The notes: generated by a model not told the origin, from the letters alone. Counted from the stretch's first letter, positions 1 through 31,388 are shown. The stretch: DNA of 64,000 nucleotides from Stratiformator vulcanicus (GCF_007744515.1 NZ_CP036268.1:347696-411695); one strand, 5' to 3'. Numbers and translations are program-made.

Positions 1-156
1 AAGCTCGCCCGCCAAAATGCGGGCACCAAGACGGTCGTGATGGGCTGCTACGCGACCCGCGATCCTGAAGCCGTCGCACAGCTCCCCGGCGTGTTCGAGG
101 TCGTCACCGACAAGCGCGAACTGCCCGACGTCTTCGAACGCCTCGGTATCGGCGAC
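1..156 (+). other. MtaB/MiaB-like N-terminal fragment fused in frame to the giant gene
   Basis: The translation from base 1 contains VVMGCYATRDPEAV followed by VFEVVTDKRELPDV. These match the N-terminal (UPF0004) domain of MtaB/MiaB-type tRNA methylthiotransferases, including the Cys in MGCYA that would ligate a cluster. After about residue 40, where such enzymes continue into the radical-SAM CxxxCxxC region, the sequence switches without a stop to Trp/Gly-rich repeat-protein sequence. The family assignment comes from remembered consensus. Whether the fusion is biological or an assembly join cannot be told from the sequence alone. Confidence 0.6.
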
Positions 157-9100: not shown

Positions 9101-12100
9101 ATGCGGGGACCGGGACGGTCTCGACGCGTCTTCAAGTCGGCAGCGGCGTATTAAACGTATCGCTCTCGGGTGGGGCGACGATCTCATCCGGCAGCAATGG
9201 TTCGGGCGACCTCACAATCTCCGGCAACCTGACGGACCTTAATGCGGTCCTCGCCAGCTTAACCTATACAGGCAACGCCGATGTCACCGGTACCGCCGCC
9301 GATACCTTAACAGTCACCACGAACGACGGCGGCAATACGGGCTCGGGCGGGGCGCTAAGTGACGTCGATGCCGTGCAAATTAATATCAGTGCCGTCAACG
9401 ATACGCCGGTAAATACGGTGCCGGGGACTCAGACGGTTGTCGAAGAAGCGACAACCCCAATTAGCGGCATCTCGATCGCCGACGTCGATGCCGGTAGCGG
9501 CACCCTCATGACGCGTCTTCAAGTCGGCAACGGCATCCTCAACGTAACACTTTCCGGCTCGGCGACAATCACGGCCGGGGCTGATGGGACGGGTGACCTC
9601 ACCATTTCAGGCAGCTTGACCGATCTTAATAATACCCTCTCCAGCCTGACCTATACCGGAAACGCCGATATCGTCGGCACCGCCGCCGATACGCTCACCG
9701 TCACCACGAACGATGGCGGCAACACCGGCTCCGGCGGTGCTCAGTCGGATGTCGACGCGGTCCAAATTAATATCACCGCGGTGAACGACGCTCCGGTGAA
9801 TACGGTGCCGGGAACGCAGGCCGTTGCCGAAGAGACGGCAACATCGATCAGCGGCATTTCGGTGGCCGATGTCGACGCTGCTTCCGGCACCCTCACGACT
9901 CAACTCCAAGTCAGCAACGGCACGTTAAACGTGTCCCTCTCGGGTTCAGCCACGATTTCTGCCGGCAGCAACGGCTCGAATGACCTGACGATTTCCGGCA
10001 GTCTAGCCGACCTAAACGCCACGCTCGCCAGTCTCATTTATACCGGCAACGTTGATGTCGTCGGAACAGCGGCGGACACGCTCACGGTGACCACCAATGA
10101 CGGGGGCAACTCGGGCAGCGGTGGCGCACTCTCCGATGTCGACACCGTGCAAATCGATGTGACCACGGTCAATGATGCCCCGGTCAACACGGTGCCCGGC
10201 ACACAATCGGTCGCCGAAGAAACGACAACGGCCATCAGCGGAATTTCCGTTAGTGATGTCGACGCCGGAGGGGGCGCTTTATCAACAAGACTTCAAGTCG
10301 GCAGCGGTATCTTAAACATTACGCTCTCGGGCGGAGCTACGATCTCGTCCGGCAGCAACGGTTCGAACGATCTGACGATCTCCGGCAACCTGACCGATCT
10401 TAATAATACGCTCGCCAGCCTGACCTACACGGGAAATACCGACGTCACCGGCACGGCTGCCGATACGCTGACCGTCACGACCAATGACGGAGGCAACACC
10501 GGCTCAGGCGGTGCTCAAAGCGATGTCGATAGCGTCCAGATTAATATTAATGCGATAAATGATGCCCCGGTGAACACAGTTCCGGGCACGCAGGCTGTCG
10601 CAGAAGAGACCACAACGACGATCAGCGGAATTTCCGTTAGTGACGTCGATGCGGGAGGCGGGACCCTTAACACACGATTGCAGGTCTCAAATGGTATCTT
10701 AAACGTCACGCTCTCTGGCTCAGCGACGATAACGGCAGGGGCTGATGGAACGGGTGATCTGACCATTGCGGGGAACCTGGCCGACCTGAACGCAACCTTG
10801 GGGAGTCTGACCTACACCGGCGATATCAATGTCGTGGGAGCAGCGGCTGATTCCCTGACCGTCACTACGACCGACGGGGGAAATACAGGAACGGGCGGCG
10901 TACTCAGTGACGCCGACACAGTCCAGATCGATATTACCGCTGTGAACGATGCGCCCGACAACACGGTGCCGGGCACGCAGACGATTGCGGAAGAGACATC
11001 GACCGCGATCAGCGGTATTTCCGTCACCGACGTGGATGCGGGCAGCGGCTCTTTGACAACTCGTCTTCAGGTTTCCAGCGGCGTCCTAAATATAACGCTC
11101 TCGGGTTCAGCCACGATCTCTGCGGGAGCCAATGGCAGCGGCGACTTGACGATCTCCGGCAGCCTTGCCGATCTCAACGCGACATTGGCGAGCTTGACTT
11201 ACACCGGCAACACCGATGTCACCGGCACGGCGGCCGATACACTGACCGTTACCACAAATGACGGCGGCAACACCGGCTCGGGAGTCGCTCAGTCCGACGT
11301 CGATGCGGTTCAGATTGACATCACGGCCGTGAACGATGCTCCGGTGAACACCGTACCGGGGACGCAGACCGTTACGGAGGAGACAAGCACGGCGATCAGC
11401 GGTATCTCTGTCAACGATATTGATGCAGGTAGTGGGACATTAACGACGCGTCTTCAAGTCAGTAATGGCGTCTTAAACGTCACACTCTCAGGTTCCGCGA
11501 CGATCTCAGCGGGATCCGATGGAAGTGGTGATCTGACGATCTCCGGCGGCTTGGTTGACCTTAATAATACATTGGCGACGCTGACTTACACCGGCAACAC
11601 CGATGTGGTGGGCACCGCGGCAGACACGCTGACCGTGACCACGAACGACGGCGGCAACACGGGCTCGGGCGGTGCCTTAAGCGACGTCGACACGGTCCAG
11701 GTCGATATCACGGCGATTAATGACGCACCAGTGAATACCGTGCCGGGCACACAAACGGTTGCCGAAGAAACGGCAACGGCCATCAGCGGCATCTCGGTCA
11801 GCGACGTCGATGCCGGGAGCGGGGCGTTAACGACACGCCTTCAAGTCAGCAGCGGCGTCTTAAACGTGACGCTGTCGGGATCAGCCACGATCTCCGCGGG
11901 AGCCGATGGGACCGGTGACCTCACGATATCAGGCAGCTTGGCCGATCTTAATAACACGCTGGCAGCGCTCACATACACCGGCAGCACCGATGTCTATGGG
12001 ACCGCGGCAGACACGCTGACCATGACCACCAACGATGGCGGCAACACCGGCTCGGGTGGTGCTCAGTCCGATGTCGATACGGTTCAGATCGATATTACGG

Positions 12101-14901
12101 CGGTGAACGATACGCCGGTCGTCTCCGGGCCGGGTGGCGCATTAAACGCTACCGAGCAGGTCGGGCGGAGCATTCACGGGACTGGCTTTGGCGTTAGCGA
12201 TGTTGATGCGGCCTCCGGCACGGCGACGGCAACCTTTACGGTCGGTGAAGGCATTTTCTCGATCACCGCGGGAGACTCCGGTGTTTCCGTCGGCGGTGAC
12301 AACGGGACGGGGACGGTGACTTTCACCGGATCGGTCGCGCAATTAGATGCCCTCTTAACGGGGGCCTCAACCGGTACGATTACCTACACAAACACCAGCG
12401 ACACGCCGAGCGCCTCCACAACACTTGTCCTAACCGTAAATGACGGCGGCAACACCGGAGCCGATCCCGGCCTAACCGCCGATGCGGCGAGTGAAGAAGA
12501 TTCCGCAAGCGTCACCTTGAATATCACTGCCGTCAATGACAATCCGATGAATGCCGGTTCTCTTCCGGCAAGCATTGCGGTGACCGAAGATATCTCCAGC
12601 GATGTGGACCTATCGCTGATCGACCTATCGGATGTCGATGCCGCCGGTGGCAGTCTCACGTTGACGCTCGGCACATCAACGGGCGGGTTGCTCTCAGCAA
12701 CTTCGGCTGGCGGCGTTCTTGTTGGTGGAAGCGGGAGTGATTCGCTGACCCTCACCGGAACGCAAGCAAATCTTAATAGCTTTCTAAATGTCGCAAGCAA
12801 CGTGCGATACCTGCACGGCACGCCCGGCACCAACGGGGTTAATGCGGACACGATTGAAGTCGAGGTGTCCGATAACGGCAATACGGGCGGCGGCGGGGGA
12901 GGCACTCTGCTGTTCGGCACCGTTAATGTCAATATCGGTGCTGTGAATGATGCCCCGGTCAACACAATTCCCGGAACTCAGGTCGTCGGAGAGGAGACTC
13001 CGACGGCGATCAGCGGCGTTTCCGTTGCGGACGTCGACGCCGGAAGCGGGGCCCTATCAACAAGGCTTCAAGTCAGCAGCGGCGTCTTAAACATCTCACT
13101 CTCAGGAAGCGCCACGATCTCGTCCGGCAGCAATGGTTCGAGTGATTTGACGGTCTCCGGAAATCTCACGGATATTAACAATACTCTTTCAAGCCTTACT
13201 TATACAGGAAATGCCGACATCACTGGAGCCGCCGCCGATATGCTTACCGTTTCAACCAACGACGGGGGTAACACTGGTAGCGGCGGAGTTATGAGTGACG
13301 TCGATTCCGTGCAAATCAACATCACACCCGTCAATGACACGCCGGTCGTGACGGGCCCCGGAAGTGCTCTGAATGCGATCGAACAGGTGGGGCTGTCGCT
13401 CGAAGGCAAAGGCTTCGGCGTCAGCGACGTCGACGCTGCTTCCGGTGAGGCGATCGCAACATTCGCCGTGGGTGAAGGGGTAATCTCAATTGAAACGGGC
13501 AACTCCGGTGTCGCGGTCATCGGGGGCAACGGGACCGGATCGGTGCTGTTCTCCGGCACGGTTTCGCAATTAAATGCGTTATTGACCGGCGGAACGACGG
13601 GCACGATCATCTATACAAACCCGAGCGATACGCCGGGCATTTCGACAACGGTGACTCTAACGGTTAATGATCGCGGCAATACAGGCAGCGACCCCGGACT
13701 CACGGGCGGCGCTTCCAGCGAACAGGACTCTGCTTCGGCCGAAATCAATATTACAGCCGTCAATGACGAACCGACGATCACCGGGCCTCTTAGCGTCAGT
13801 GTCGGCGAGAGCGAAGCGTTCATGTTCTCGAAGGCACAAGGGAATCAGATCGTCATTTTCGATCCTGATGTTGGAGCGGGAACCCTTAGCGTTACGCTAA
13901 GAGCGGTAGATGGGACGCTCACACTGGCAAGCACCTCCGGTCTAACTCTCTTCATCGGTGATGGGGCACAGGATTCGATGATTCGGATGACCGGATCGCT
14001 GGCCGCAATCAACAATGCCTTGAACGGGTTGACTTATTATCCATCGAACCTCCTCGGGGGGAGTGACCTTCTCACGATTTCAGTGAGCGATGGTGCGGGA
14101 GAAGGGCCGGCAATCAATTCGGCTCAGCTTTCTATTGAAGTTCAAATTCCGAATACGACTGATCCGCTTCTATTTGAAGAGCGTACTCCCGTCGAACTTG
14201 AAGACGAGAATATCGCGGAGGATGAAGAAGAACTCGACTTTGAAGCGGTGCCGCAGACTTCGGACGCAAATCAGGACAGCTTAAGTGCGCTGGAAGACCG
14301 AGTGCGGGCACGCAATGAGGTCGAGAAGCGGTTCGAAGACCAACGCCGGGACGAACCGAACAATACCCGAGTTCGTGGTCCGGTCTTCACCGAAGTTGAA
14401 GTCAATTTGACGTTGGAAGACGGGGTGGCTCCCGAGAAGTTCGATCGCTCTCAAGACGAAGTCCTCAACGAGATCGGTCAGGCTATTCAGCAGCGTCAGA
14501 CCGCCGAGTTAGACCTCGAAAGCGATCTTCGCGAGTTAGGCCAACAATTGGATCACGTCCATGAGAACCTGCTCACCGAAATTACGTTTCAGTCTCTCAT
14601 TGTCGGCTCCGTGACGACGGCCAGCATCAGTCTGACCGTCGGTTATGCGATCTGGGCGACCCGGGCCGGAGTTCTCTTCGCGTCGATGCTTTCATCCCTT
14701 CCGGCGTGGCAGTCATTTGATCCGTTGCCGGTCCTCGGCGGCGCCGCTGATCCTGGCCGCCGAGAAGGTTCTGAATCTTTGTTGAACATGGTGAATTCTG
14801 GTACTTCGGCTCCGCGAGAGATAAAGGCTGACCTGACACCTCCGAATGCTGATCGGGCCGGAAACAGTCCGACCGGACCAGTGACGGGAGGCAACGGATG
14901 A
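1..14901 (+). CDS. Giant cadherin-like repeat surface protein, 5' end open
   Basis: The frame is open from base 1, so the true start lies outside; the first internal starts are GTG 37 and ATG 40. Numbering from GTG 37, residues 1-40 resemble an MtaB/MiaB N-terminus, not a surface protein. Residues about 45-135 look like Trp-rich propeller-type sequence. About 450-865 are cadherin-like repeats, 868-1078 a LamG/concanavalin-like domain, and 1083-1435 and 1438-1906 two parallel beta-helix regions that open with SLRQAI and SLREAI signatures. More Ig/cadherin modules follow, then a long repeat array at about 2735-4025 and further modules to about 4700. The tail has an acidic, coiled-coil-prone stretch and a hydrophobic segment near 4850-4880, suggesting C-terminal membrane anchoring. 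No signal peptide is visible, as expected if the real N-terminus is missing. An adhesive or structural cell-surface role is inferred from the domains only. The 3' end overlaps the next gene by 4 bp. Confidence 0.85.
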   Translation, partial: KLARQNAGTKTVVMGCYATRDPEAVAQLPGVFEVVTDKRELPDVFERLGIGDLLATYAEGSNNEVRYRTWTSGGGWSSESLGPNPGSMSSMTLSSDPGGDQLMLAVLEDNGDVHFVEWDGGAWGDREELESNATSTQLQPYLFVYDQGVELDTAGSSFWFSTDGDENNPGTDGVNSISKGGVLRFGDPDLNLEPNGGTTDGTFSHVFDLDDFADDGDANINGLHYVSRDITIGSGGNTFDLQTGDILFSTKDDEDVTGNNTLAFTKDEIILFRPDTVGDFGSGTFTLLVDDLSLITGENETRGLSLVETDTVVGDATLTAGSFLVSTNGGAAEKDVRLLTLTGVGAGSTSGSIDTLIEGDDIDQGEKIYGIELIESGITLGGTTLSGGQILLTIEKSDSSVGDNAILVGDHDVFALTVSNTTLVSGVGNTAADATLIVDGDDVGLDSGSEKLDALALVSTNQPPVIDLPGGSLAFSEGDGPSIIDATATLSDPDSVDFDTGTLTVDFAANGTSNDRLSINNEGTGFGQIGVSGSDVTYSGTVIGTFAGGTDGSTPLVITLDSDADQAAAQALVRNITFDNVSNTPDTTARTVRFLMADGDGAVSQAVTTTINVTPVNDAPVNTVPGTQTVSEEFTTIISGISVSDVDAGGGTLTTRLQVSSGVLNVTFSGSATISAGAVGTDDLTISGSLADLNNTLSTLTYTGNTEVTGTAADTLTVTTNDGGNTGSGGAQIDVDTVQIDITAVNDPPVLTMPGTQTVNEETSTAINGISVSDADAGSSDITARLQVSSGVLNVTLSGGTTIDSGADGTDDVTLRGSVTDINATLASLTYTGGTDVTGTAADTLTVTVNDQGNTGSGGAQLDIETVQIDITAKSSDITTGLVGHYEFDEGSGSNASDSTGNQDGTLSTNDAPQWEGSEAVGTEAIEFDGDSTNQNSYVEIADNAAQDFGSGEFSVAFWYQADANPTEIGHVIGDFYTSGDSGFAVWAYTSGSFQVIVSDGSAFAGPLDGEFDGEWHHVAIVQTASEIVAYHDGVEQNRWNHSPVAVDSSNDLRIGAVSETERDFDGAVDDVRLYNRVLWAEDVQELYLMNPSETTVTNTNDSGAGSLRQAIINANANPGADVIDFHIPGSGSHVIYLDSALPLITDEVTIDATTEADFLPGGVIVTIDGTSAGGSADGLNFNTGSDGSALYGLGIQNFDNPAVRVADTSDITIGGVDAGNQIINNEDWGILIAWGASDVDVIGNAIGTDFSGTAVLGNGEGITVGNANDITVGGLNVGEGNFIAHNADAGIDILSSAGNDITILGNAIWGNANLGIDIGSDGVSSNDSGDGDGGPNGTQNFPVLSAAVTNDGSTIEISGSLNSNASTDYRIEFFASAAGDGTGHGEGRTYLGYTDVSTDGSGDATFNVGLSADVSPGEVITATATVDNGSGDYGDTSEFASNVTATIAGVITVTTTSDVSDGDTSSIAALLGNRGADGLISLREAILAANSTTNGATPDEIRFDIAGSGPHTIAIDNASVLPVITDEVIIDGWSEPDFAGTPVIELDGSATTGGIIGLRVDGADSVIRGLVIHSFAYTGVRVDASGTTWHGNFIGTDVTGTLDRGNGYEGMEVTAAADNTQIGGTGANEGNIISGNSYTGLSIAADNVVVEGNRIGVNLAGDAVISNDYKGIDVYGNSVTIGGAVAAAANVIGGSNQNAISLGGGSGHVVQGNFIGTDPTGTINLGNNGHGIGVSNNTTATLIGGTGAGEGNTIAFNDDDGIYVTSNLTSGVSILGNAIYGNNELAIDLFANGVNPNDLGDGDTGPNGLQNYPVLATAMTDGGSTVDLTGSLNSTASTDFRIEFFASAAGDGSGHGEAERYLGFVNVTTDASGNASFNTSLAASVAVGEVLTASATVDLGSGNYGDTSELAANVTATSSSNVAPTITDLAGDTLNFAEDDGPSPVDQGGDAQITDADSSDFGGGQLSVSIVAGAVPGEDELGILDLGMGAGQVGVSGSNVYYGGTLVGTLAGGTGGTPLTVAFNSMASPAAATAILQNVTYNNNDSATPTSGARTLRFVVEDGDGGTSADYDATVNVAAHNDAPVLTVPGTQSVAEETAAGITGISVSDVDASGGQITTRLQVGSGVLNVTTWGGATISAGSNGTNDLTILGTIADVNQTLASLSYTGGTDVTGTDADTLTVTVDDQGNFGAGGARQDVETVQIDIVNVNDAPSGSDSTVTTDEETDYVFSASDFGFSDTDGDALAGVVISTLPANGTLYLDADADGQVDAGEAVVATDEVSVADLTAGQLKFKPAANGNGVGYDAFTFRVRDDGGTAGGGVDIAPSAATMTIDVNPIDDPPNLAFGEGNKTYAENAAPTILDGSLTVADPDGLDFDGGRLVVSVSSGGSGDDRIGMVAGGSVTINSGLREIYHGGTLVGTWTGSGAPFEVTFNANADVGIVQDVARQVGFWNNSDDPSTAVRNVQFRVFDAEGNSSNVVSKTVSVAASNDAPEVDLDANDSNSPGLDYAADFTHGAGPVAITDVDALIDDVDGVIQTLTVEISNLQDGVDEVLGWTLPGTISSSYQASLGRVVFTNGGSATNADFEDLLRSLSYDNAASLPDVTARTITIVANDGVADSLTATATVTFAGDATPPSVVANGGQTVTEGQTVGIGSADLEYADTQGPAATRYSVTSTPADGRLEFTDNPGVAVTSFTQADINSARLQYVHDGSEFTSDSFAFQVDDGLGNVTAIQAFNLVVSPVNDAPVLTMSGTQTVNEEMPTSLSGISVSDADAGGSDITARLQVSSGVLNVTLAGGTTIDSGADGTDDVTLRGSVTDINATLASLTYTGGTDVTGTAADTLTVTVNDQGNTGSGGAQSDVDTVQIDITAVNDAPVNTVPGTQSVVEETTTAISGISVNDVDAGGGSASTRLQVVDGVLSVTLSGSATISAGGNGSNDLTITGNLTDLNSTLATLTYTGNTDVTGTAADTLTVTTNDGGNTGSGGAQSDIDTVQIDITAVNDAPVNAVPGTQIVDEETTTAISGISVSDVDAGTGTVSTRLQVGSGVLNVSLSGGATISSGSNGSGDLTISGNLTDLNAVLASLTYTGNADVTGTAADTLTVTTNDGGNTGSGGALSDVDAVQINISAVNDTPVNTVPGTQTVVEEATTPISGISIADVDAGSGTLMTRLQVGNGILNVTLSGSATITAGADGTGDLTISGSLTDLNNTLSSLTYTGNADIVGTAADTLTVTTNDGGNTGSGGAQSDVDAVQINITAVNDAPVNTVPGTQAVAEETATSISGISVADVDAASGTLTTQLQVSNGTLNVSLSGSATISAGSNGSNDLTISGSLADLNATLASLIYTGNVDVVGTAADTLTVTTNDGGNSGSGGALSDVDTVQIDVTTVNDAPVNTVPGTQSVAEETTTAISGISVSDVDAGGGALSTRLQVGSGILNITLSGGATISSGSNGSNDLTISGNLTDLNNTLASLTYTGNTDVTGTAADTLTVTTNDGGNTGSGGAQSDVDSVQININAINDAPVNTVPGTQAVAEETTTTISGISVSDVDAGGGTLNTRLQVSNGILNVTLSGSATITAGADGTGDLTIAGNLADLNATLGSLTYTGDINVVGAAADSLTVTTTDGGNTGTGGVLSDADTVQIDITAVNDAPDNTVPGTQTIAEETSTAISGISVTDVDAGSGSLTTRLQVSSGVLNITLSGSATISAGANGSGDLTISGSLADLNATLASLTYTGNTDVTGTAADTLTVTTNDGGNTGSGVAQSDVDAVQIDITAVNDAPVNTVPGTQTVTEETSTAISGISVNDIDAGSGTLTTRLQVSNGVLNVTLSGSATISAGSDGSGDLTISGGLVDLNNTLATLTYTGNTDVVGTAADTLTVTTNDGGNTGSGGALSDVDTVQVDITAINDAPVNTVPGTQTVAEETATAISGISVSDVDAGSGALTTRLQVSSGVLNVTLSGSATISAGADGTGDLTISGSLADLNNTLAALTYTGSTDVYGTAADTLTMTTNDGGNTGSGGAQSDVDTVQIDITAVNDTPVVSGPGGALNATEQVGRSIHGTGFGVSDVDAASGTATATFTVGEGIFSITAGDSGVSVGGDNGTGTVTFTGSVAQLDALLTGASTGTITYTNTSDTPSASTTLVLTVNDGGNTGADPGLTADAASEEDSASVTLNITAVNDNPMNAGSLPASIAVTEDISSDVDLSLIDLSDVDAAGGSLTLTLGTSTGGLLSATSAGGVLVGGSGSDSLTLTGTQANLNSFLNVASNVRYLHGTPGTNGVNADTIEVEVSDNGNTGGGGGGTLLFGTVNVNIGAVNDAPVNTIPGTQVVGEETPTAISGVSVADVDAGSGALSTRLQVSSGVLNISLSGSATISSGSNGSSDLTVSGNLTDINNTLSSLTYTGNADITGAAADMLTVSTNDGGNTGSGGVMSDVDSVQINITPVNDTPVVTGPGSALNAIEQVGLSLEGKGFGVSDVDAASGEAIATFAVGEGVISIETGNSGVAVIGGNGTGSVLFSGTVSQLNALLTGGTTGTIIYTNPSDTPGISTTVTLTVNDRGNTGSDPGLTGGASSEQDSASAEINITAVNDEPTITGPLSVSVGESEAFMFSKAQGNQIVIFDPDVGAGTLSVTLRAVDGTLTLASTSGLTLFIGDGAQDSMIRMTGSLAAINNALNGLTYYPSNLLGGSDLLTISVSDGAGEGPAINSAQLSIEVQIPNTTDPLLFEERTPVELEDENIAEDEEELDFEAVPQTSDANQDSLSALEDRVRARNEVEKRFEDQRRDEPNNTRVRGPVFTEVEVNLTLEDGVAPEKFDRSQDEVLNEIGQAIQQRQTAELDLESDLRELGQQLDHVHENLLTEITFQSLIVGSVTTASISLTVGYAIWATRAGVLFASMLSSLPAWQSFDPLPVLGGAADPGRREGSESLLNMVNSGTSAPREIKADLTPPNADRAGNSPTGPVTGGNG
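2236..2610 (+). repeat. Cadherin-like repeat nearly identical to the copy at 8236-8580
   Basis: This repeat and the one at 8236-8580 share long, almost identical DNA: about 200 bases from the codons for VLNVTL to those for GNTGSGGA differ at only a few positions. Other repeats in the gene are clearly more diverged at DNA level. The pair brackets the LamG and beta-helix part of the gene, consistent with recent duplication or gene conversion. Confidence 0.8.
8236..12110 (+). repeat. Tandem array of ten cadherin-like repeats, period about 387 bp
   Basis: Ten consecutive units begin near 8236, 8626, 9010, 9400, 9785, 10170, 10560, 10945, 11335 and 11720. Each starts with a variant of NDAPVNTVPGTQ, continues with ISGISVSDVDAG, and ends with TLTVTTNDGGNTGSGGA followed by DTVQIDITAVN. 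The Asp/Asn-rich DxDAG and NDxP motifs fit Ca-binding cadherin-like folds. Related single copies sit at about 1849, 2236, 6244 and 12945. Units differ mostly by synonymous changes. Confidence 0.9.
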
Positions 14902-17571: not shown

Positions 17572-19191
17572 ATGGATTTCCTCGTCCATCACATGCTGCG
17601 GGCAAGCGCTGCGCGTCACGCGGAGAAGGAAGCGCTGGTCCACGAGTCGCAGCGGCTCTCGTTTGCCGAGTTGAAGACGCGTGTGGACCGCCTTGCCTCA
17701 TTGCTCGCGGCTGCGTCGCTTCAACCGGGCGATCGAGTCGCGATCGCCTTAGAGCCGTCGGTCGAACAGGTTGTCGCTATTTTTGCGGTTTCTCAGGCAC
17801 AAGGGGTCTTCGTTCCGATTCACCACAGCCTGAAGGCGGAACAGGTTTCCCATATCATTAATGACTGCGGTGCAACGGCACTCATCACATGTGCAGAGCG
17901 CCTTGTCGACCTTGAAGACGTCATCCGCGATGCTTCGTCCTTAAAGTTTGTGGTGAGCGACGATCCGGTTGCGGCTACCGATCTGCCGTGCCCGGTCGTT
18001 GATGGTTCGGCGAGTCAGGCATGCTCTGCTCTTGACGTCCCAACGGACCGGGTTAATGAGCGAGACTTGGCAGCCATTCTTTATACTTCCGGATCGACCG
18101 GCAAACCCAAGGGGGTCATGCTGAGTCACGCCAACGTCATGGCCGGTGCGAGCATTGTCTCAGAATACCTTTCCATCGAGGCACAAGATCGAATCCTCGC
18201 AGTCCTGCCGTTCAGCTTTGATGCCGGACTCAATCAATTGACGACTGCCGTTCAGCAAGGCGCGACGCTCGTATTAAAGTCGTTCCGATTTGCACGCGAG
18301 ATTGTCAAGACGCTCGAGAGCGAGCAGATCACCGGACTAGCGGGAGTGCCGCCCGTTTGGAATCTGTTAGTTCAACGAAGTTCGCGGCTCGCCGAGACGA
18401 GCCTGCCGCGGCTTCGCTATATCACGAATACCGGCGGAGCTCTTTCGCAAACCACTTTGGCTGAACTGCGTCAATCGCTTCCTGACTTGGACATCTTTTT
18501 AATGTACGGTCTGACGGAAGCCTTTCGATCCACCTATTTGCCTCCTTCAGAGCTCGACCGGCGTCCCTCTTCAATGGGGCGTGCGATCCCGAACACAACG
18601 ATCTATGTCCTTCGAGACGACGGTCGCGAGTGCGGTCCCGGCGAGACCGGGGAACTGGTCCATCACGGTCCCACCGTTTCACTCGGCTATTGGGGCCATC
18701 CCGAATTGACGGCCCAAGTTCTTCGCCCGCACCCCTTTGCACACCCCGGAATGAGTGACGGAACGAAGGTCTGCTATTCGGGGGACCTTGTGAAGAAAGA
18801 CGAAGAGGGATTTCTTTACTTTGTCAGCCGACGTGACAATCAAATTAAGACCTCTGGCTTCCGTGTCAGTCCCAGTGAGGTTGAGGAAGCGATCTTTCAA
18901 TCGGGGTTCGTGACGGAAGCTGCCGTCGTGGGACTTCCGGACGAGATGCTCGGGCAACGGATTGCGGCCTTCGTCGTTCTTAACGGTCAAGACGGATCGG
19001 CTGCCGATCAGATTAGATCTTTCTGCGCAGACCGCCTACCCCGGCACATGGTGCCCGCCTCCGTTGAGGTGATGCCGTCGTTACCAAAAACAGCGTCCGG
19101 CAAAATTAATTATCCCGCCATCCGGCAAATCGGTCTTGGTTCTGAGGCGACTGATCTTGACCGTTCCAAAAACGCGAAGGCAGGTGTGTGA
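17572..19191 (+). CDS. AMP-dependent acyl/aminoacyl ligase (exosortase-associated type)
   Basis: 539 aa member of the adenylate-forming superfamily. It activates a carboxylate with ATP and passes it to CoA or a carrier-protein thiol. Visible core motifs are the P-loop YTSGSTGKPKG (from about residue 171), YGLTE, YSGDL with the following RRDNQIKTSGFRVSP, and PKTASGKI with catalytic Lys511. Its stop overlaps the start of the PLP decarboxylase, and a free-standing ACP is encoded on the opposite strand at 21742-22002. The layout matches the ligase/decarboxylase pair described next to exosortase A systems, so an ACP-loaded amino acid or acyl group is a plausible product. The substrate cannot be read from the sequence. 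The start has no strong Shine-Dalgarno. Confidence 0.88.
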   Translation: MDFLVHHMLRASAARHAEKEALVHESQRLSFAELKTRVDRLASLLAAASLQPGDRVAIALEPSVEQVVAIFAVSQAQGVFVPIHHSLKAEQVSHIINDCGATALITCAERLVDLEDVIRDASSLKFVVSDDPVAATDLPCPVVDGSASQACSALDVPTDRVNERDLAAILYTSGSTGKPKGVMLSHANVMAGASIVSEYLSIEAQDRILAVLPFSFDAGLNQLTTAVQQGATLVLKSFRFAREIVKTLESEQITGLAGVPPVWNLLVQRSSRLAETSLPRLRYITNTGGALSQTTLAELRQSLPDLDIFLMYGLTEAFRSTYLPPSELDRRPSSMGRAIPNTTIYVLRDDGRECGPGETGELVHHGPTVSLGYWGHPELTAQVLRPHPFAHPGMSDGTKVCYSGDLVKKDEEGFLYFVSRRDNQIKTSGFRVSPSEVEEAIFQSGFVTEAAVVGLPDEMLGQRIAAFVVLNGQDGSAADQIRSFCADRLPRHMVPASVEVMPSLPKTASGKINYPAIRQIGLGSEATDLDRSKNAKAGV

Positions 19192-20549
19192 TGAGTTCGA
19201 TCGCCGAAACGGAATCAGCCGCGACGACATTGCAACCTTCCTTATCTCGAAGATTGATCGCTCGCCACTTCGGTAGTTCTGACGATGCGTTATGCTTGGG
19301 CGGTGTGTCCGTTGATAAACTTGCGTCGAAGTACGGCACGCCGCTATTCATCTATGACGAATCGGTGATGCTCGAAGCGCTGCAATCGTTAAGGGCGGCG
19401 ACGGGCGATTCCGTTGATATCTATTACTCAATGAAAGCGAATCCCACGCAGCGGATTCTTAAGCTTTACTGTTCGCATGGGTGCGGCATTGAGATTGCTT
19501 CGATCGGAGAACTGGAACAGGCTTTGGCTGCCGGTGTTGATCCGAAGCGAATTCTGTTCGCAGGGCCCGGCAAGCAGTCGCATGAGCTTCGTCGAGCGGC
19601 CGAAGTCGGGATTGGGGAAATTCATCTCGAATCACTTCGGGAGGCGGAAGAACTTAATCGCCTTGCGGCTGAGCAAAATCGGACGATTCGAGTCTCATTA
19701 AGGATTAATCCCACCGAGTCGGTGCAAGGCGGAGCCATGCGGATGGGCGGGAAGCCGTCTCCGTTCGGGATTCCGGAGGAGGAGTTGGAGGCAGCGGTGC
19801 TGCGGATCGAAGCGCTTCCTCACCTGCTGCTGGACGGACTTCACCTCTTTACAGGAACGCAAATTCTGCAGGCTGAGATACTGCTCAAGCAGTACGCTCG
19901 GGCTATTGAACTCGCCGGTCGGATTGTTGAACTGACCGGCCGCGCCTTGGGATCGATCGATTTTGGTGGGGGCCTTGGCATTCCCTATTTCGAGCACGAA
20001 GGACATCTCGATCTCGAAGTCTTAAGGGAGGGCTTTAAAGACGTTGCTTCGCAGTTGGCCGATCATCCCCTGCTCTACCGGACGCGGATGATTATCGAGC
20101 CCGGTCGATTTCTGGTCGGCCCGGCCGGCATCTATTTAAGTCGCGTCATCGATGTAAAGATCTCACGGGGCAAAGAGTTCGTGATTACCGACGGCGGAAT
20201 GCATCACCACTTAGCCGCGTCCGGCAATCTGGGTCAAACCATTAAGCGTAATTATCCCATCGTGCTCGCGAATCGACTCGGTGAAGCCGAGTCGCAGCGG
20301 TACGATGTCGTCGGGCCGCTATGTACTCCGCTCGATACGCTCGGGCGAAATGTCGCACTTCCTGGTGTCCAGCCCGGAGATTTGATTGCGGTTCTGCAAT
20401 CGGGGGCTTACGGGCGGTCTTCAAGCCCGATGCAGTTTTTAAGTCACCCGTCGCCTGCTGAGGCCTTGGTGTCAGACGGGACAAGTTCGCTAATTCGACA
20501 TGCTGGCGGTTGGCAGGATCTGATCGGAGAGCAGGTAGTCGATCGCTAG
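19191..20549 (+). CDS. PLP-dependent fold-III decarboxylase (exosortase-associated type)
   Basis: About 452 aa of the ornithine/diaminopimelate decarboxylase fold-III family, which decarboxylates basic amino acids. PLP Lys82 lies in YYSMKAN. Other family motifs seen are GGGLGIPY, the phosphate-binding EPGRF, GPLCTPLDT with the catalytic Cys, and GAYGRSSSP. ATG 19191 overlaps the ligase stop (TGATG); an in-frame GTG lies one codon earlier. Coupling with the ligase suggests the substrate may be carried or processed by the adjacent ACP system, as proposed for exosortase A-associated homologues. It is not a plain lysA by context, since no lysine genes adjoin. Confidence 0.88.
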   Translation: MSSIAETESAATTLQPSLSRRLIARHFGSSDDALCLGGVSVDKLASKYGTPLFIYDESVMLEALQSLRAATGDSVDIYYSMKANPTQRILKLYCSHGCGIEIASIGELEQALAAGVDPKRILFAGPGKQSHELRRAAEVGIGEIHLESLREAEELNRLAAEQNRTIRVSLRINPTESVQGGAMRMGGKPSPFGIPEEELEAAVLRIEALPHLLLDGLHLFTGTQILQAEILLKQYARAIELAGRIVELTGRALGSIDFGGGLGIPYFEHEGHLDLEVLREGFKDVASQLADHPLLYRTRMIIEPGRFLVGPAGIYLSRVIDVKISRGKEFVITDGGMHHHLAASGNLGQTIKRNYPIVLANRLGEAESQRYDVVGPLCTPLDTLGRNVALPGVQPGDLIAVLQSGAYGRSSSPMQFLSHPSPAEALVSDGTSSLIRHAGGWQDLIGEQVVDR

Positions 20550-21741: not shown

Positions 21742-22002
21742 TTAGACTCGCTTGGAAATCACGAACTCGACGAGCTTGTCGATCGATTCGAAATTGTCGG
21801 AGACGAGGTCCTCATCGTCCAAAATGAGGTCGAATTCGGTCTCGATATAGGCGACGACATCAAGCGTGCCGAGGGAATCGATCAGCCCGTTTTGCAGTAA
21901 CGATGCATCGTCGGACAACTGCTGCTGCCGCGCGAGCGGAAACTGCTCGTAGACAAAGGCGCGGATCGATTCGCGAACGGTCAGGTCGTCGATGGTTTGC
22001 AT
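21742..22002 (-). CDS. Acyl carrier protein
   Basis: 86 aa from ATG 22002; an upstream in-frame ATG at 22047 would add 15 residues without family support. Ser43 in NGLIDSLGTLDVV is the expected 4'-phosphopantetheine attachment site. The acidic helix TEFDLILDDEDLVSDNF follows, typical of ACPs. It is not a fatty-acid acpP by context, because no fab genes are near. Its partners are probably the AMP ligase at 17572, the decarboxylase and the GNAT protein. Confidence 0.85.
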   Translation of the reverse strand: MQTIDDLTVRESIRAFVYEQFPLARQQQLSDDASLLQNGLIDSLGTLDVVAYIETEFDLILDDEDLVSDNFESIDKLVEFVISKRV

Positions 22003-22240
22003 TGGCCCATTCCGGATATTTCGAGTGAATGACGGGCACGCCGACATGCAGCCGCAAGCCGCCCGTTCTTCGAAACCCTACCGCACGGTTTCCAATGGTG
22101 CGGGACGTCTTGCCGCACATCGACCGATTGGGCTTTCGCGGCTACCGAAATCAAGGAATGACACGAGATGTTGCGTTTTCGAAACTTGCGGCCTGAGCCG
22201 TGTTCCCTTGATCGCAACAGCGATCAGAGACGCATCGTCG

Positions 22241-25744: not shown

Positions 25745-27565
25745 TTACGGATGGTCGGCGGCGAGGGCGGCTCTGAGATCGGCCGCGGCGAGATAGTAGA
25801 GCAGCAACGCATCGACGGCTTTTTCGGCGATTTCGAAGGCGTACTGCTCGCGGAGCGTCACTTTCAACAGGTCGGACAGGCCGAGTTCAAAATTGCGGCG
25901 CTCGATTTGGGCGAGCCGTTCCGCGTATTCGACCGCGTCCTGCGCCTGCTCGACCTGTTCGTAGGCCGAGATCAGTCCCGCGTAAGCCGCCCGCACATCG
26001 GCGACGACTTTATCGGCGACAAGCTGCTGTTTCGCGGAGAGCTGCGCCATCTTACCTTCGATGGCCGCCATCTTTCCGCGAGCCTTACGGCGCTGCAGCG
26101 GCAGATCGAAAAACAGGCCGGCTTCAAGTTCAAAATCTCCCTTGTCATCGATCGACCGGGACGCCTGCAGTCCGACATCCTGCGAACCGACAACCATCGT
26201 ATCGAGATTCGGCTGGAAATCGTTTTGAGCCTGAGCCATGTCGACATTTAACTGCCGACGGGTCAGCCGCAATATTTCCAGTTCCGGACGTTGCCGCAGC
26301 GCGACCTCCTGATCGAGGATCACGTTCTCAGCATCGATCGGCTTCGGCTCGGGAAAGATTGGCGCCGCTTCCGGGCCAAGGACGATCGGCATGCCGATTT
26401 CGTCTCTTAAAAAGATCGACAGCTTCACAGCGGCTTGTTGAAGTTTCCGTTCGGCATCGGCCCGCTTGACCTCGCGCTCGGAAACAAGTCTTAAATTGTC
26501 AATTAATACAGGGGGGTCGAGTAGGCCTTCTTCAACCTGTCGGCGAAGTTGATCGGTCCGGTCGTCCGCCAACTTAAGGACGTTGACCGCGATTTTATAC
26601 TTCTCTCCGGTGGCGACCCAGTACCAATATGCGTACGAGGCTTCCTGTACGGACCCGACTAGCTCGGCGTGAATTTCGGGCTCCACGATGAGTTGATCGT
26701 ATTGCGTTCGCCACAGTTCGGCTCTGCGATCGTCGATCTCTCTGTTTCTTAACAGCGGGGCGGCCAGGCCGGCTTTGAATTCACCGCCGTCGTCTGTCTG
26801 TCGCTCTTTATACCAAGGCTGGAAGAACCCTCGTCCGGTTCGATAGCCGGCGAACGCCTCGCCCCCCGTGAAGAGCGGTTGGACCAAACCGATATGCTGC
26901 CGGTAGTTTTTATAAAAGCCGAGCGGCATGTTCTCGCTCGCCGCTTTAAGTTTTAGATCGAACTCGCCGGCCGCGGCCAGGTTTGCTCCCGCCGCCACGT
27001 TCCGGCCAAACCGGGCCGCCCGTATCATCGGGTACGTGTGATAAACCGAAGCCACGACCTCTTCCAGGTTCAGTGTCGACTCCGATTGCTCTCCGTAAAA
27101 TTGATCGAGCGCAGCGCCGTCGGTCTTGCCGTCCGATGTATCCGATTGATCCGCGTCGTCTTGCGTTGCAGGATCGCGATCCGAATCATTTTCGGGACTC
27201 GGACTCGGCAGCGGCGGAACAGGTTGCAGGGTGAATTGAGCCTGCCGAATTTCTTCACCCGATTCCGATTCGTCCGATTTTTTCATCGCACGGTCGACGA
27301 TGGCGTCGACATTAAAATCTGATCGCGCCGCCGAATCGGCGGTCTCCGCCGAAGTGATGGTCCTTGAAGCGACTGTCTCAGAAACGCCCGTATTCGAAGC
27401 GCCGGTCTTCGAAGCGCCCGTCTTCGAAGCGTCCGGCTCCAAAGCAACTACCGTGGGAGCTTCGGTGACGCGCTGAGACGTTTCGACGCAATGCGATTGC
27501 GTCCAGGCACATCCTCCGGCCGAAAGGAGTACCGCGATCGCGCAAAGTCCTTTCATTCGGAACAT
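25745..27565 (-). CDS. TolC-family outer-membrane efflux lipoprotein
   Basis: About 606 aa from ATG 27565 (GTG 27577 and ATG 27556 are alternatives). The N-terminus has a lipoprotein signal with a SAGGC box. A low-complexity Thr/Ser/Ala linker includes a short pentapeptide repeat. Two outer-membrane-efflux domains follow, with coiled-coil regions such as LVADKVVADVRAAYAGLISA and LAQIERRNFELGLSDLL. It would form the outer-membrane and periplasmic channel of the exporter encoded upstream by the HlyD and ABC genes on the same strand. The N-terminal linker of about 150 residues is unusual compared with E. coli TolC. Confidence 0.88.
   Translation of the reverse strand: MFRMKGLCAIAVLLSAGGCAWTQSHCVETSQRVTEAPTVVALEPDASKTGASKTGASNTGVSETVASRTITSAETADSAARSDFNVDAIVDRAMKKSDESESGEEIRQAQFTLQPVPPLPSPSPENDSDRDPATQDDADQSDTSDGKTDGAALDQFYGEQSESTLNLEEVVASVYHTYPMIRAARFGRNVAAGANLAAAGEFDLKLKAASENMPLGFYKNYRQHIGLVQPLFTGGEAFAGYRTGRGFFQPWYKERQTDDGGEFKAGLAAPLLRNREIDDRRAELWRTQYDQLIVEPEIHAELVGSVQEASYAYWYWVATGEKYKIAVNVLKLADDRTDQLRRQVEEGLLDPPVLIDNLRLVSEREVKRADAERKLQQAAVKLSIFLRDEIGMPIVLGPEAAPIFPEPKPIDAENVILDQEVALRQRPELEILRLTRRQLNVDMAQAQNDFQPNLDTMVVGSQDVGLQASRSIDDKGDFELEAGLFFDLPLQRRKARGKMAAIEGKMAQLSAKQQLVADKVVADVRAAYAGLISAYEQVEQAQDAVEYAERLAQIERRNFELGLSDLLKVTLREQYAFEIAEKAVDALLLYYLAAADLRAALAADHP
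27382..27436. repeat. Short tandem 15-bp repeat inside the TolC-like gene
   Basis: About three to four imperfect copies of a unit containing TTCGAAGCGCCCGTC encode the (S/T)-K-T-G-A type pentapeptides in the linker after the lipobox. Such repeats are prone to length variation. Confidence 0.7.
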
Positions 27566-27742
27566 CCACGATCTCACAGGTTTCAGGCGGGAAGTCGTAC
27601 GGCGGCGTCTGTATCAATATTGTCGACGCTCCAGCTTGTACGACTCAAACCGCCTTTCACCGGTAGGGGCTTCCCCGCGGACGTGTATCTGTCGGAGCGT
27701 ATTGCCGACGCGATGCGTAAAGTCTTCCCAAAGTCCGCTTGG

Positions 27743-29227
27743 CTATTTGGGGATTTTGGGAGGCTTGCTCGGTTTTTCGGTCTTCATGTCCGCGTCATAC
27801 ACGGGCGGGAATCCGTTGAGGCGGCGCCAGACTTCGAACCACAGCGGAACACGGTCGAGTAGCACCCAGGCATTCGCTCGTACGCCCTGCCGCAGGAACC
27901 GCTCGTCCGGCCACGGTACATCATCCGGATCGGGTAGGATCAACACGCGGAACTGCCCCCGACCGTTGTCGACGGCGTCGATCGAGATCACTTCGCCGCC
28001 GAAGGTTCCAACTGCAACGGAGGGCCAACCAGAGAACTGAACGGCGGGCCAACCTTCGAATTGCAGCCGCGCGTGTCGCCCCGGTTCAACGAGCGGAGCG
28101 TCGTTGCCGTCGAGCCAGATTTGGACGGCCCGGTCGGTCGTCTCCGGCACGATGGTGCAGATGGGATCGCCTTGTTTCAGTACGGCGGTCCCCATATTCG
28201 GGATGATCTTCACCACAAATCCGTCGAACGGGGCTAACACTTTTCCGTTATCTTGACGCGACACGTCGGTCTGCATCTTAAGAAGCTCTTGCTCCGCCTT
28301 ATTGACTTCCTGCTCCGCTTTGGCGACGGCGCCCTCCGCTTTGGAGACATCACCCTTGGCTTTTCGCAGTGTCGCGGTTGCGTAGTCGATATCAACTTGG
28401 GCTTTTTCAATCTTCGCCGTCCGTTCCCGTTGCTTGCCGATCAATTCCGACTCGGCGGCCCCCACGTAGTTTTCGGCCCGGCTGACTTTGGCCTTGGCTT
28501 CACCGACTTTTCGTTTCACCTCTTCGTACTTCAGCACCGAAACGTTGCCCTCTTCCTTAAGGGTCTTGATCCGATCGAGCTGGGCTTCTAATTGCGGGAT
28601 CGCCGCCTTGTATTCGGCGAGCTGCTGCTCTTCGGCAGACACTTTGCGCTGCGCCATAATGACGTAGGCGTCTTGGGCGGCGATCGTTTGCTCTTTGACG
28701 GAGCGATAGGCTCGAATCTGAGCGTCACTCGATTCCACCACCGTCTTCGCGGCTTCGAGCGCGGCCGTGTTGGCCCGCAATTGTGTCTTCGCCGATTCAA
28801 GCGAGAGCTTGCTCTGATCAAGCTGGCTCTGCAGCCGATCGGCATACGACTCGTCGAGATCGCGGATTTCGGCGATCAACTGCCCCTTCTTCACTCTCGC
28901 ATTTTCAAAGATTCCCTCACCTAACCGGGCGATCCGGCCTTTGATTGGCGACTGAATGACCTGCTGACGTTGCCCCGGGGCATAGGCGAAGACGTTGCCG
29001 CTGCCATAGACCGATTGCTGCCACGGTGCGACGGCCATGCAAATGATGGCGGCGCTCAACAGAGCGAACAGAACCTTGGCGATCCGGCGAATTCTTGCCG
29101 AGGTTTTCGTCAGGCGGAGCGAAGGCATGAGCGCATCGCTATAGGCGACCGGAAGGAGCATCCCGGACCGCGGGGGCGCTTCCCCGTTCACTTCAGTTTC
29201 GGTCGAAGGAATTGTGGTCGTGGCCAT
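27743..29227 (-). CDS. HlyD-type membrane fusion protein
   Basis: 494 aa. One TM helix near residues 48-68 (AKVLFALLSAAIICMAVAPW) is followed by the split biotinyl-lipoyl-like domain (VIQSPIKGRIARLGEGIFE and APFDGFVVKI). These are separated by a long alpha-helical coiled-coil hairpin of about 200 residues. A beta-barrel follows. It should bridge the inner-membrane ABC protein and the TolC-like channel. Its start lies 35 bp inside the 3' end of the ABC gene, so the two are tightly coupled. ATG 29227 was taken; Met23 is an alternative. Confidence 0.88.
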   Translation of the reverse strand: MATTTIPSTETEVNGEAPPRSGMLLPVAYSDALMPSLRLTKTSARIRRIAKVLFALLSAAIICMAVAPWQQSVYGSGNVFAYAPGQRQQVIQSPIKGRIARLGEGIFENARVKKGQLIAEIRDLDESYADRLQSQLDQSKLSLESAKTQLRANTAALEAAKTVVESSDAQIRAYRSVKEQTIAAQDAYVIMAQRKVSAEEQQLAEYKAAIPQLEAQLDRIKTLKEEGNVSVLKYEEVKRKVGEAKAKVSRAENYVGAAESELIGKQRERTAKIEKAQVDIDYATATLRKAKGDVSKAEGAVAKAEQEVNKAEQELLKMQTDVSRQDNGKVLAPFDGFVVKIIPNMGTAVLKQGDPICTIVPETTDRAVQIWLDGNDAPLVEPGRHARLQFEGWPAVQFSGWPSVAVGTFGGEVISIDAVDNGRGQFRVLILPDPDDVPWPDERFLRQGVRANAWVLLDRVPLWFEVWRRLNGFPPVYDADMKTEKPSKPPKIPK

Positions 29228-31388
29228 CGTGTTGTTCCAACTGGAAACGTGATTCGGCTTCGCCGATGGTCAGGCGTCGGGTGCCCTGTGCGGCGATCTG
29301 TTCGCGACCGGTCACAACGATCGCCGTCCAAGGATGGTCAGAGTCGAGGATTGCTCCGATGGCCGATTCGATACCGGCGTCGGAGAGCGCGTCCAGAGTT
29401 CTGTCGATCAATAATAGGCGCGGATGCCCCGCAATGGCACGGGCCAGCGCGATTAGCGTGACCTGCCGGTTACTCAAAGGAGCGCCTTCTTCGTGCAAAT
29501 CGGTCTTTAGTCCGTCCGGCAGGCTCAGTACCTCATCGAGCATTCCGACGGCGTGCAAGGCTGCTTTGACGTCGCCGACCGAGACATCAGGTCGACCGAT
29601 CCGGACATTTTCTTCGATGGAGCCGTGGAAGATTTCTGGTTTGCGGACCAGTGCCACGCTGCGGCGCAGAACGTCGGGTCGAATGTCGCGCGGGTCCATG
29701 CCGTCGATCGAGACGTGCCCCTTCGAGGGCGTCCTCATGCCGTAGATCAGGTCGAGCAGGATGCTGTGGCCATGGGCATCCGCCCCTTCGATCATCAGTC
29801 GCTCCCCGGCTTCAATCGCCTGCGAGAACGAAGTCAGCCCCGTTTTCGTATGTGAATCGGTGCAAGTGACCCCGTGAAACTCGATTTCAGCCGCCAATTC
29901 CGAAGGCATGCTCTGAGCACCGTCGAGCCGTTCCATCGGCAGGTCGAACAGCACGCCGAGCTTATCGACCGAGGCGAGCAGGTCGTAATAGCTCTCCATA
30001 TGTTTGCCGAGCTTGGCGAACGCGCCCACGATCACCGTCACGATCAATTCGGCGGCGACCAATTGCCCGAGCGTCAATTGGCCGGTCATGACCAACCACC
30101 CTCCCAGGCCGAGCAGCACGGTACTTGCGACGGCCTGCATCCCGAGTGCGAACAGAATCTGCCGCATCAGCACGCGAAAGTGCTTCTTCCGGGCCGTCAG
30201 GTATTTGTTGACGAGCTGGTCGGCTCGATCGAGCGCGAAGTCGGCGGCGCCGGCGTATCGAAATGAGACCCCGCAACCGGCCAACTCTTCCAGCCATGCG
30301 GCGGTCTTATATTTCGTCTTCGACTCGGCAATGCTGCTTTGAACCGCGCCGCGGCCCAAGACGAAAATAACAAAGGCGATCAACGCCAACAGCATGACGT
30401 CGAAGCCCAGCAGCCACGGGTGGTAAAATGCCAGGACCGACATCCCGATCAGCGCTCCAAAGACGAGCGAGATGCCGTCGAGCAGCAGACTCGCCGCGAC
30501 CTTCTGCACGGTCACGATATCGAAGAACCGGTTGACCAGTTCTTTGGTGACGGCTCCGTTGTTTTCTTCGAAATCCGTGCGGGGCAGCCGAAATGCGAAA
30601 TCGGCTGTAACCCGCGCGAACAACCGCCGCTGAATCACTTCCACCACAAAGGTCTGCAGGGCGCGCAGGGCCGCAGAAAACGCCAAAAAGGCGAACAGCA
30701 TCAACGAGAGGATCACGATCGGCTGGACCAACCGACCGAACGCGACCGTGCTCACGAGCGTCTCGACCGCCAGCGGTGTCGCCAAAGCCAGCAGGCCCGT
30801 CATCGCGGCAAAGACCGCGATGATCGCGATGTCCGAGGCCTCCGGCGACAGGATTGCCCACAAACGTCCGAACGGCGTTCGGGCTCTTGAAGGGTCCGCA
30901 AAAGGGTTCGACATGTGTGGGTGGCTGACCAGACAGCAGCGAACCTCGGCCGTCGCAGCACTTCTCAACTGAGACTTCAAGACCGACGGGCTGGCCTTCG
31001 ACTCTTCGTGCCCCTCACTGATGTCGACAAGCACGAACTTCGACTTCTTCATGCCTTTGATGAGAGTCCACTGCCCGTGCGGCCCGGTCGGTACGATCAG
31101 ATTCCCGCCCTTCGCCGCAATGTCTTTCATCTCAGCGAACGTGCAATCGACGATCTGACATCGAAAGCCCAGGCTGCGGCCGGCTTCGACAATCGCCTGA
31201 AACGTGTCTGAATCACTCTGCGTTCCCCACCGCTCGATCGCTTCTTTGACCGCCAGCCGCGTCTTTGAACGGTCGAGTGCCTCGTGCTGTTCGAGCGCGA
31301 GATCGTCAAACAAGCCGGCAATTTCTTCCGAACCGAGCGACTTGCTGCCGTTGATCGGCCCCGAGGAGAATCGAGAATTGCTGCTCAT
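29193..31388 (-). CDS. Type I secretion ABC protein with degenerate ATPase
   Basis: 731 aa, arranged like bacteriocin/T1SS exporters. A degenerate C39-like domain occupies about residues 20-150 (GQWTLIKGMKKSKFVLVDI; no catalytic Cys/His pair evident). A six-helix ABC membrane domain spans about 180-470 and a C-terminal nucleotide-binding domain about 500-720. The ATPase motifs are eroded: Walker A reads EGADAHGHS (no Lys), the signature LSNRQ replaces LSGGQ, Walker B is LLLIDRT (Arg for catalytic Glu), and the switch His is Gly in VVTGREQ. ATP hydrolysis is therefore doubtful, although the frame is intact and the HlyD/TolC partners are complete. First gene of a three-gene minus-strand operon. 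Confidence 0.85.
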   Translation of the reverse strand: MSSNSRFSSGPINGSKSLGSEEIAGLFDDLALEQHEALDRSKTRLAVKEAIERWGTQSDSDTFQAIVEAGRSLGFRCQIVDCTFAEMKDIAAKGGNLIVPTGPHGQWTLIKGMKKSKFVLVDISEGHEESKASPSVLKSQLRSAATAEVRCCLVSHPHMSNPFADPSRARTPFGRLWAILSPEASDIAIIAVFAAMTGLLALATPLAVETLVSTVAFGRLVQPIVILSLMLFAFLAFSAALRALQTFVVEVIQRRLFARVTADFAFRLPRTDFEENNGAVTKELVNRFFDIVTVQKVAASLLLDGISLVFGALIGMSVLAFYHPWLLGFDVMLLALIAFVIFVLGRGAVQSSIAESKTKYKTAAWLEELAGCGVSFRYAGAADFALDRADQLVNKYLTARKKHFRVLMRQILFALGMQAVASTVLLGLGGWLVMTGQLTLGQLVAAELIVTVIVGAFAKLGKHMESYYDLLASVDKLGVLFDLPMERLDGAQSMPSELAAEIEFHGVTCTDSHTKTGLTSFSQAIEAGERLMIEGADAHGHSILLDLIYGMRTPSKGHVSIDGMDPRDIRPDVLRRSVALVRKPEIFHGSIEENVRIGRPDVSVGDVKAALHAVGMLDEVLSLPDGLKTDLHEEGAPLSNRQVTLIALARAIAGHPRLLLIDRTLDALSDAGIESAIGAILDSDHPWTAIVVTGREQIAAQGTRRLTIGEAESRFQLEQHDGHDHNSFDRN

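Follow-up and report, generated by a model that had tools for sequence, protein, structure and literature searches.

We describe here an ATP-binding cassette (ABC) exporter of Stratiformator vulcanicus whose nucleotide-binding domain (NBD) has lost its catalytic motifs, and which is encoded together with an HlyD-type adaptor and a TolC-type outer-membrane factor at positions 25745-31388 of a stretch of 64,000 nucleotides (GCF_007744515.1 NZ_CP036268.1:347696-411695), hereafter the window. We propose, with a probability of roughly 0.6, that this protein belongs to an ancient lineage of ABC exporters that are pseudo-ATPases, in which a type I-like HlyD/TolC conduit would not be powered by the exporter's own ATP hydrolysis. 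An earlier reading made from the sequence alone (the sequence-only reading) had suggested that selection keeps the membrane part of the exporter without ATP hydrolysis. This is borne out by motif loss throughout the family, a conserved three-gene arrangement, high constraint on the transmembrane domain (TMD) and a collapse of catalytic constraint on the NBD, and it is possible that energy comes from a source other than the exporter's own ATP hydrolysis. No description of this family was found in the literature searched. The parts of the exporter on which the argument depends are as follows:

29193..31388 (-), HlyB-like ABC exporter with a degenerate NBD, 731 aa, a single open frame (Pfam, NCBIfam, Foldseek)
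30894..31388 (-), degenerate C39-like N-terminal domain, residues ~1-165 (Pfam C39, 13.1 bits; Foldseek whole-length alignment to HlyB and PCAT1)
29937..30875 (-), TMD with six long helices, residues 172-484 (PF00664; structure model; 66/312 positions at least 95% conserved)
30048..30050 (-), E447 in TM6 (conserved in 97% of the family; no acidic residue seen here in the canonical set)
29289..29891 (-), NBD with fold retained and motifs lost, residues 500-700 (PF00005; pLDDT mostly 80-90; Z 21.4 to the TAP1 NBD)
29763..29786 (-), Walker A remnant GADAHGHS, Lys to His (direct reading)
29643..29645 (-), Q-loop position, Gln to Arg (R582, ALVR; direct reading; Arg in 87/112 relatives)
29463..29477 (-), signature remnant LSNRQ (direct reading)
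29400..29417 (-), Walker B LLLIDR, Asp retained and catalytic Glu to Arg (direct reading)
29307..29309 (-), switch position, His to Gly (G694, VVTG; direct reading)

Direct reading of the frame and its motifs confirms that a Walker A without Lys and an altered signature, Walker B Glu and switch His, as had been claimed, all lie within one intact ABC frame (GADAHGHS, LSNRQ, LLLIDR and VVTG), and adds the replacement of the Q-loop Gln by Arg. The main residues that would hold or polarise the gamma phosphate are changed in the window protein, and the Walker B Asp stays. Both ABC_tran (47.1 bits) and ABC_membrane (35.1 bits) nevertheless score above their Pfam cut-offs. An AlphaFold2 model (m2bae6825ab63), which was built from ten sequences and is not used for side-chain claims, has a mean pLDDT of 70.7, with most of the NBD at 80-90 and the TMD moderate. 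Its top Foldseek match is HlyB (8dck, E 8.5e-25; 7sgr), followed by PCAT1, and VIA-align gives Z scores of about 20 to many ABC exporters, with 21.4 to the TAP1 NBD. The model thus predicts the fold of an ordinary exporter with an NBD that still folds, despite the window protein being the deadest member of the family. The N-terminal C39-like domain is degenerate, as had been noted: its Pfam Peptidase_C39 match of 13.1 bits falls under the 22-bit cut-off and spans profile positions 36-110 only, the N-terminal part of the domain being missing, and the protein has no active C39 protease domain by which it could be called a peptidase-containing ABC transporter (PCAT). HlyB-type exporters ordinarily lack the C39 catalytic site, their C39-like domain having no protease activity (PMC8277102).

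These losses are a property of the family. By searching the phylum (294 genomes), the same bacterial family (160 genomes) and named contigs from a GTDB collection, we collected 113 distinct members, including the window protein. The degenerate ABC gene occurs in 93/160 genomes of the bacterial family, nearly always as a single copy, and named member records come from Planctomycetaceae, Planctomycetales, one Rhodopirellula bin and Myxococcales/Deltaproteobacteria bins. Among the 111 members with a complete NBD, none has the LSGG[QE] signature, 14 keep the catalytic Glu (absent in 97), two keep the switch His (absent in 109) and all keep the Walker B Asp; in the 112 members where the Walker A and Q-loop columns are present, the Walker A Lys is found in 94 and GK[ST] in 84, and the Q-loop Gln survives in only three, each of which lacks the Walker A Lys. 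No member with a complete NBD has the full catalytic set. All of Lys, Glu, His, Gln and LSGG[QE] were kept in 23/23 canonical exporters, nearly all from the same bacterial family, and since the losses recur in 111 relatives, they go beyond chance. The replacements themselves are non-random (Glu to Gly in 74, His to Gly in 63, Gln to Arg in 87). Misalignment of the motifs was rejected as an explanation, in that alignment-free regular expressions also give LSGG[QE] in 0/111 members compared with 23/23 canonical exporters, as was a recent lesion or sequencing error, the losses being family-wide.

The sequence-only reading had asked whether homologues share the motif losses together with the HlyD/TolC neighbours, and they do: the losses recur across the 111 complete NBDs, and the neighbours in 106/106 (HlyD) and 60/69 (TolC) testable loci. 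Close homologues with intact motifs, which would have indicated a lesion confined to this strain, were not seen. The nearest relatives of the window protein (55-57% identity) also lack the signature, Glu and His, and Glu and His are kept together only in two distant members, L157 and L163, which have Walker A as well, but carry an LSQGQ/LSLGQ signature and a Lys at the Q-loop. FastTree places these two near-canonical members near the base of the family. In the IQ-TREE tree, L069, L072 and L070, all without Glu and His, branch off deeper, and with an outgroup branch of great length, the placing of the root and the number of Glu and His losses are provisional. The Walker A Lys was lost repeatedly, changing at least 11 times on the tree; the window protein is among those affected, as are its close relatives L044, L054 and L083. 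In one nested subgroup (L128, L129, L131, L134, L142, L143, L146-L148, L151 and L177), a Glu follows the Walker B Asp where relatives have Gly; this Glu is possibly a regain, and it comes without the switch His.

Constraint on the two domains is distributed in the opposite way to that in canonical exporters. In the family, TMD identity exceeds NBD identity in 6089/6089 pairs (mean 0.60 versus 0.41), whereas NBD identity exceeds TMD identity in 67/67 pairs of canonical exporters of the same bacterial family. Positions conserved at 95% or more make up 66/312 of the family's TMD and 9/195 of its NBD, compared with 79/312 and 98/195 in canonical group A, a rough comparison as the canonical groups are small. 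In close pairs, dN/dS lies well below 1 for both domains, mostly 0.01-0.1 for the TMD and 0.05-0.2 for the NBD, as estimated with a simple Nei-Gojobori script and with saturated pairs excluded from the reading; the NBD value is usually 2-4 times that of the TMD, and one pair, L071/L073, shows the opposite. The NBD is under purifying selection, kept as a fold and freed from catalytic constraint, and so is no dead remnant.

The conservation extends to the partner genes. The three frames of the locus are open on the minus strand, are transcribed in the order ABC exporter, HlyD-type adaptor and TolC-type outer-membrane factor, and include the following two genes:

27743..29227 (-), HlyD-type periplasmic adaptor, 494 aa, start possibly 29161 (PF13437 above cut-off; TIGR01843, E 7.9e-21)
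25745..27577 (-), TolC-type outer-membrane factor (TolC/OEP), 610 aa (PF02321, 80.5 bits)

Both partners had been thought intact, and with open frames that match PF13437 and PF02321 they are so. The further proposal that they are coupled by a 35-bp overlap stands in part: the overlap, which is between ABC and HlyD, arises if HlyD begins at the ATG at 29227, but it is gone if the in-frame ATG at 29161 is used (at MLLPVAYSD, a position matched by MLxPVAYSES across many relatives), and HlyD and TolC are separated by a gap of 165 bp. Across the family, HlyD lies directly downstream of the ABC gene in 106/106 loci with enough flank; the automatic count gave 102 and four misses, and in those four it lies in long open frames overlapping the ABC gene, which we counted as present. 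TolC is on the same strand and within 5 kb in 60/69 testable loci, and pairwise identities of ABC and HlyD correlate at 0.87. No other neighbour is conserved across planctomycetes among the neighbours that we clustered, not all of which are annotated. A DUF2891 gene was considered as a conserved fourth gene and rejected, as it is restricted to Myxococcales, occurring downstream of the triad in the three such loci with enough flank (L045, L046 and L048). Because gene neighbourhoods otherwise differ, we regard the triad as a self-contained unit.

Within the TMD, 20 charged residues are at least 95% conserved across the family, and the fixed charged set that this domain carries is absent from canonical exporters. 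In the hydrophobic stretches, E447 of TM6 is 97% conserved and is not acidic in the canonical residues listed, R346 of TM4 is 90% conserved, and D304 of TM3 is 92% conserved, the last being common in canonical exporters too; H323 and K459 are invariant and located at helix ends. L157 and L163, with their near-canonical NBDs, carry almost the same charged set, and as they share nearly all of it, the set is independent of the catalytic loss. On the simplest reading of the sequences, the charged residues would predate that loss.

We therefore arrive at the following model. An HlyB-like homodimer would assemble with HlyD and TolC into a conduit of the type I secretion kind that spans both membranes. 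By sequence, both composite ATP sites of such a homodimer would be without hydrolysis residues; most relatives, though not the window protein, keep the Walker A Lys together with the Walker B Asp and may bind nucleotide there. We infer that gating and energy coupling passed to the TMD, which made hydrolysis unnecessary and let the NBD degenerate into a scaffold; nucleotide binding would be a regulator at most, in the relatives that retain Walker A. As to the source of energy, we tentatively favor an ion gradient across the inner membrane as the most likely one. That these loci encode a widespread type I-like machine whose ABC exporter works without any ATP hydrolysis, as an ion-gradient-driven secondary transporter or channel with a pseudo-ATPase NBD as its scaffold, is possible but doubtful. 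In HlyB, neither ATP hydrolysis nor HlyA secretion survives the H662A substitution of this switch His, although the complex can still assemble, and the proton motive force has a role early in HlyA secretion (PMC5018854). In LmrA, a form without the NBD conducts ions, and a Glu in TM6 is needed for proton coupling (PMC6155054). By analogy, these cases are precedents, not proof.

Several observations weigh against this model. The catalytic Glu is present in the nested subgroup (L128, L129, L134 and others), and roughly three in four members retain Walker A, such that nucleotide binding probably still matters in those. E447 is Trp in L068, L076 and L077, of which the two with a complete NBD are also dead, and so it is not the sole coupling residue everywhere and is dispensable in some members. 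No conserved cargo gene, including a linked gene of the RTX type, was found at the family loci, and a partner ATPase may be encoded elsewhere in the genome. With such a partner, the degenerate protein would be half of a heterodimer, or part of a mixed complex, in which an intact ABC exporter or another ATPase supplies hydrolysis in trans. Heterodimeric exporters in which one site is degenerate are common (PMC7756269), and canonical TMD-NBD exporters are present in every examined genome of the bacterial family. The earlier suggestion that the protein pairs with another NBD nevertheless finds no support near the loci, in that no second ABC gene of the same kind lies in the flanks of any member, and the window genome has, by frame length and motif, just two intact TMD-NBD half exporters, L002 and L004, both distant from the family. 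Moreover, known degenerate partners retain part of the motif set, whereas here the signature, Glu, His and Q-loop are jointly gone, and as they are lost together, a heterodimer would have both of its composite sites impaired. We consider a partner in trans unlikely.

Other explanations give the NBD itself more work, or less. If nucleotide binding without hydrolysis gated the conduit, as a switch or regulator, the NBD would be selected for binding, and this is consistent with GK[ST] in 84/112 members, with the Walker B Asp in 111/111, with purifying selection on the domain and with the finding that ion conduction by LmrA can be set off by an ATP analogue that is hydrolysed slowly (PMC6155054). 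However, the Walker A Lys has changed at least 11 times, among others in the window protein and in several of the relatives closest to it, which makes gating by ATP binding unlikely in the window species as the P-loop Lys is gone, and the site-completing signature is lost everywhere, so that such gating cannot be general; we judge it improbable. Very improbable, in our view, is that the ABC gene is decaying with only HlyD and TolC mattering, or that its product is a non-transporting anchor for them. The relaxed constraint on the NBD relative to the TMD would fit, yet the frames are intact in most of the 113 genomes, the dN/dS values of both domains are low, 66 TMD positions are at least 95% conserved, and a pure anchor is not expected to fix charged residues through coupling regions and transmembrane helices. 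Slow hydrolysis with unconventional residues, for which some members keep Walker A together with the Walker B Asp and Glu, can hardly be credited, since the signature and switch His are absent, the window protein lacks the P-loop Lys too, and loss of the switch His by itself inactivates HlyB (PMC5018854). An old lineage of pseudo-ATPase exporters, not powered by their own hydrolysis, is accordingly the explanation that we retain.

Elsewhere in the window, a giant gene at 37-14901 (+) encodes a cadherin/VCBS-repeat protein of 4954 aa that is acidic, has almost no Cys and carries a hydrophobic segment in its C-terminal part; the gene contains a 387-bp tandem repeat at 8485-12110, and a gene for a PAS-GGDEF-HD protein comes next. 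The beginning of this open frame is what we take to be MiaB/MtaB-like sequence, and its start is doubtful. As a cargo, the giant protein is unsupported: of the 39/160 bacterial-family genomes that encode its C-terminal domain, 27 also carry the dead ABC gene (background 93/160; Fisher p 0.14), and the two are unlinked in relatives. At 17572-20549 (+), a gene for an AMP-binding enzyme adjoins one for an Orn/DAP/Arg-type decarboxylase, near an acyl-carrier-like small open reading frame at 21742-22047 (-), and these could form a small biosynthetic locus. Outside the window, the same genome encodes a second degenerate TMD-NBD half exporter (L081:5680-7683; G000:C1 about 4605680-4607683, -), with Walker A ATEPMAGRA, LNVGQ, EE at Walker B and Gln replacing the switch His, which belongs to a different lineage and context, with HD-domain and ABC2-membrane neighbours.

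ABC exporters are defined by ATP hydrolysis, and the lineage described here appears to have dropped it while holding the TMD tightly. Its relatives, at different stages of loss, offer a natural series on what the NBD is for and on whether an ABC TMD can be driven in another way, a question so far argued from the biochemistry of LmrA and MsbA. It also follows that a planctomycete gene annotated as "type I secretion ABC transporter" need not encode a pump driven by ATP. The window system has the HlyB-fold TMD-NBD exporter of type I secretion (PF00664, PF00005, Foldseek), with HlyD and TolC in the same locus, but no ATPase-competent NBD (Walker A/B, Glu, signature, His and Q-loop), and it scores far below the cut-offs of the curated NCBIfam models for ABC proteins of type I secretion (TIGR01846, 168 bits against a cut-off of 725; TIGR03375, 166 against 693). 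As it fails both the ATPase feature and these cut-offs, it should be labelled type I-like with a pseudo-ATPase and not a type I secretion ABC transporter.

Among known systems, HlyB of HlyB/HlyD/TolC is the best whole-length structural match and shares a C39-like domain without active site, the TMD, the NBD and HlyD/TolC in an operon, but its catalytic motifs are complete and its secretion depends on ATP hydrolysis, whereas the dead-ABC family has neither the motifs nor a linked RTX-type cargo gene. The peptidase-containing exporters of the PCAT1/AMS type agree in domain order and fold; the present family differs in lacking the C39 protease and ATPase motifs and in having HlyD/TolC partners. 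Heterodimeric exporters (TAP1/2, TM287/288, TmrAB, CFTR and MsRv1273c/72c) likewise retain degenerate motifs under selection, yet each has at least one competent composite site, whereas a dead-ABC homodimer would be left with no such site, and the flanks of family members contain no partner gene. LmrA and MsbA provide the precedent for ion conduction or proton coupling by an ABC TMD, with an important Glu in TM6, although both are functional ATPases and a correspondence of E447 to LmrA E314 is at most tentative. Finally, the SecA_DEAD-associated type I-like loci of planctomycetes (PMC4452313), from the same phylum, also have HlyD/OEP without an ordinary ABC motor; they combine M50/HlyD with SecA_DEAD and have no ABC gene, while beside our triad no such conserved neighbour was seen among the clustered and partly annotated neighbours, and the triad retains an ABC exporter with a pseudo-ATPase NBD.

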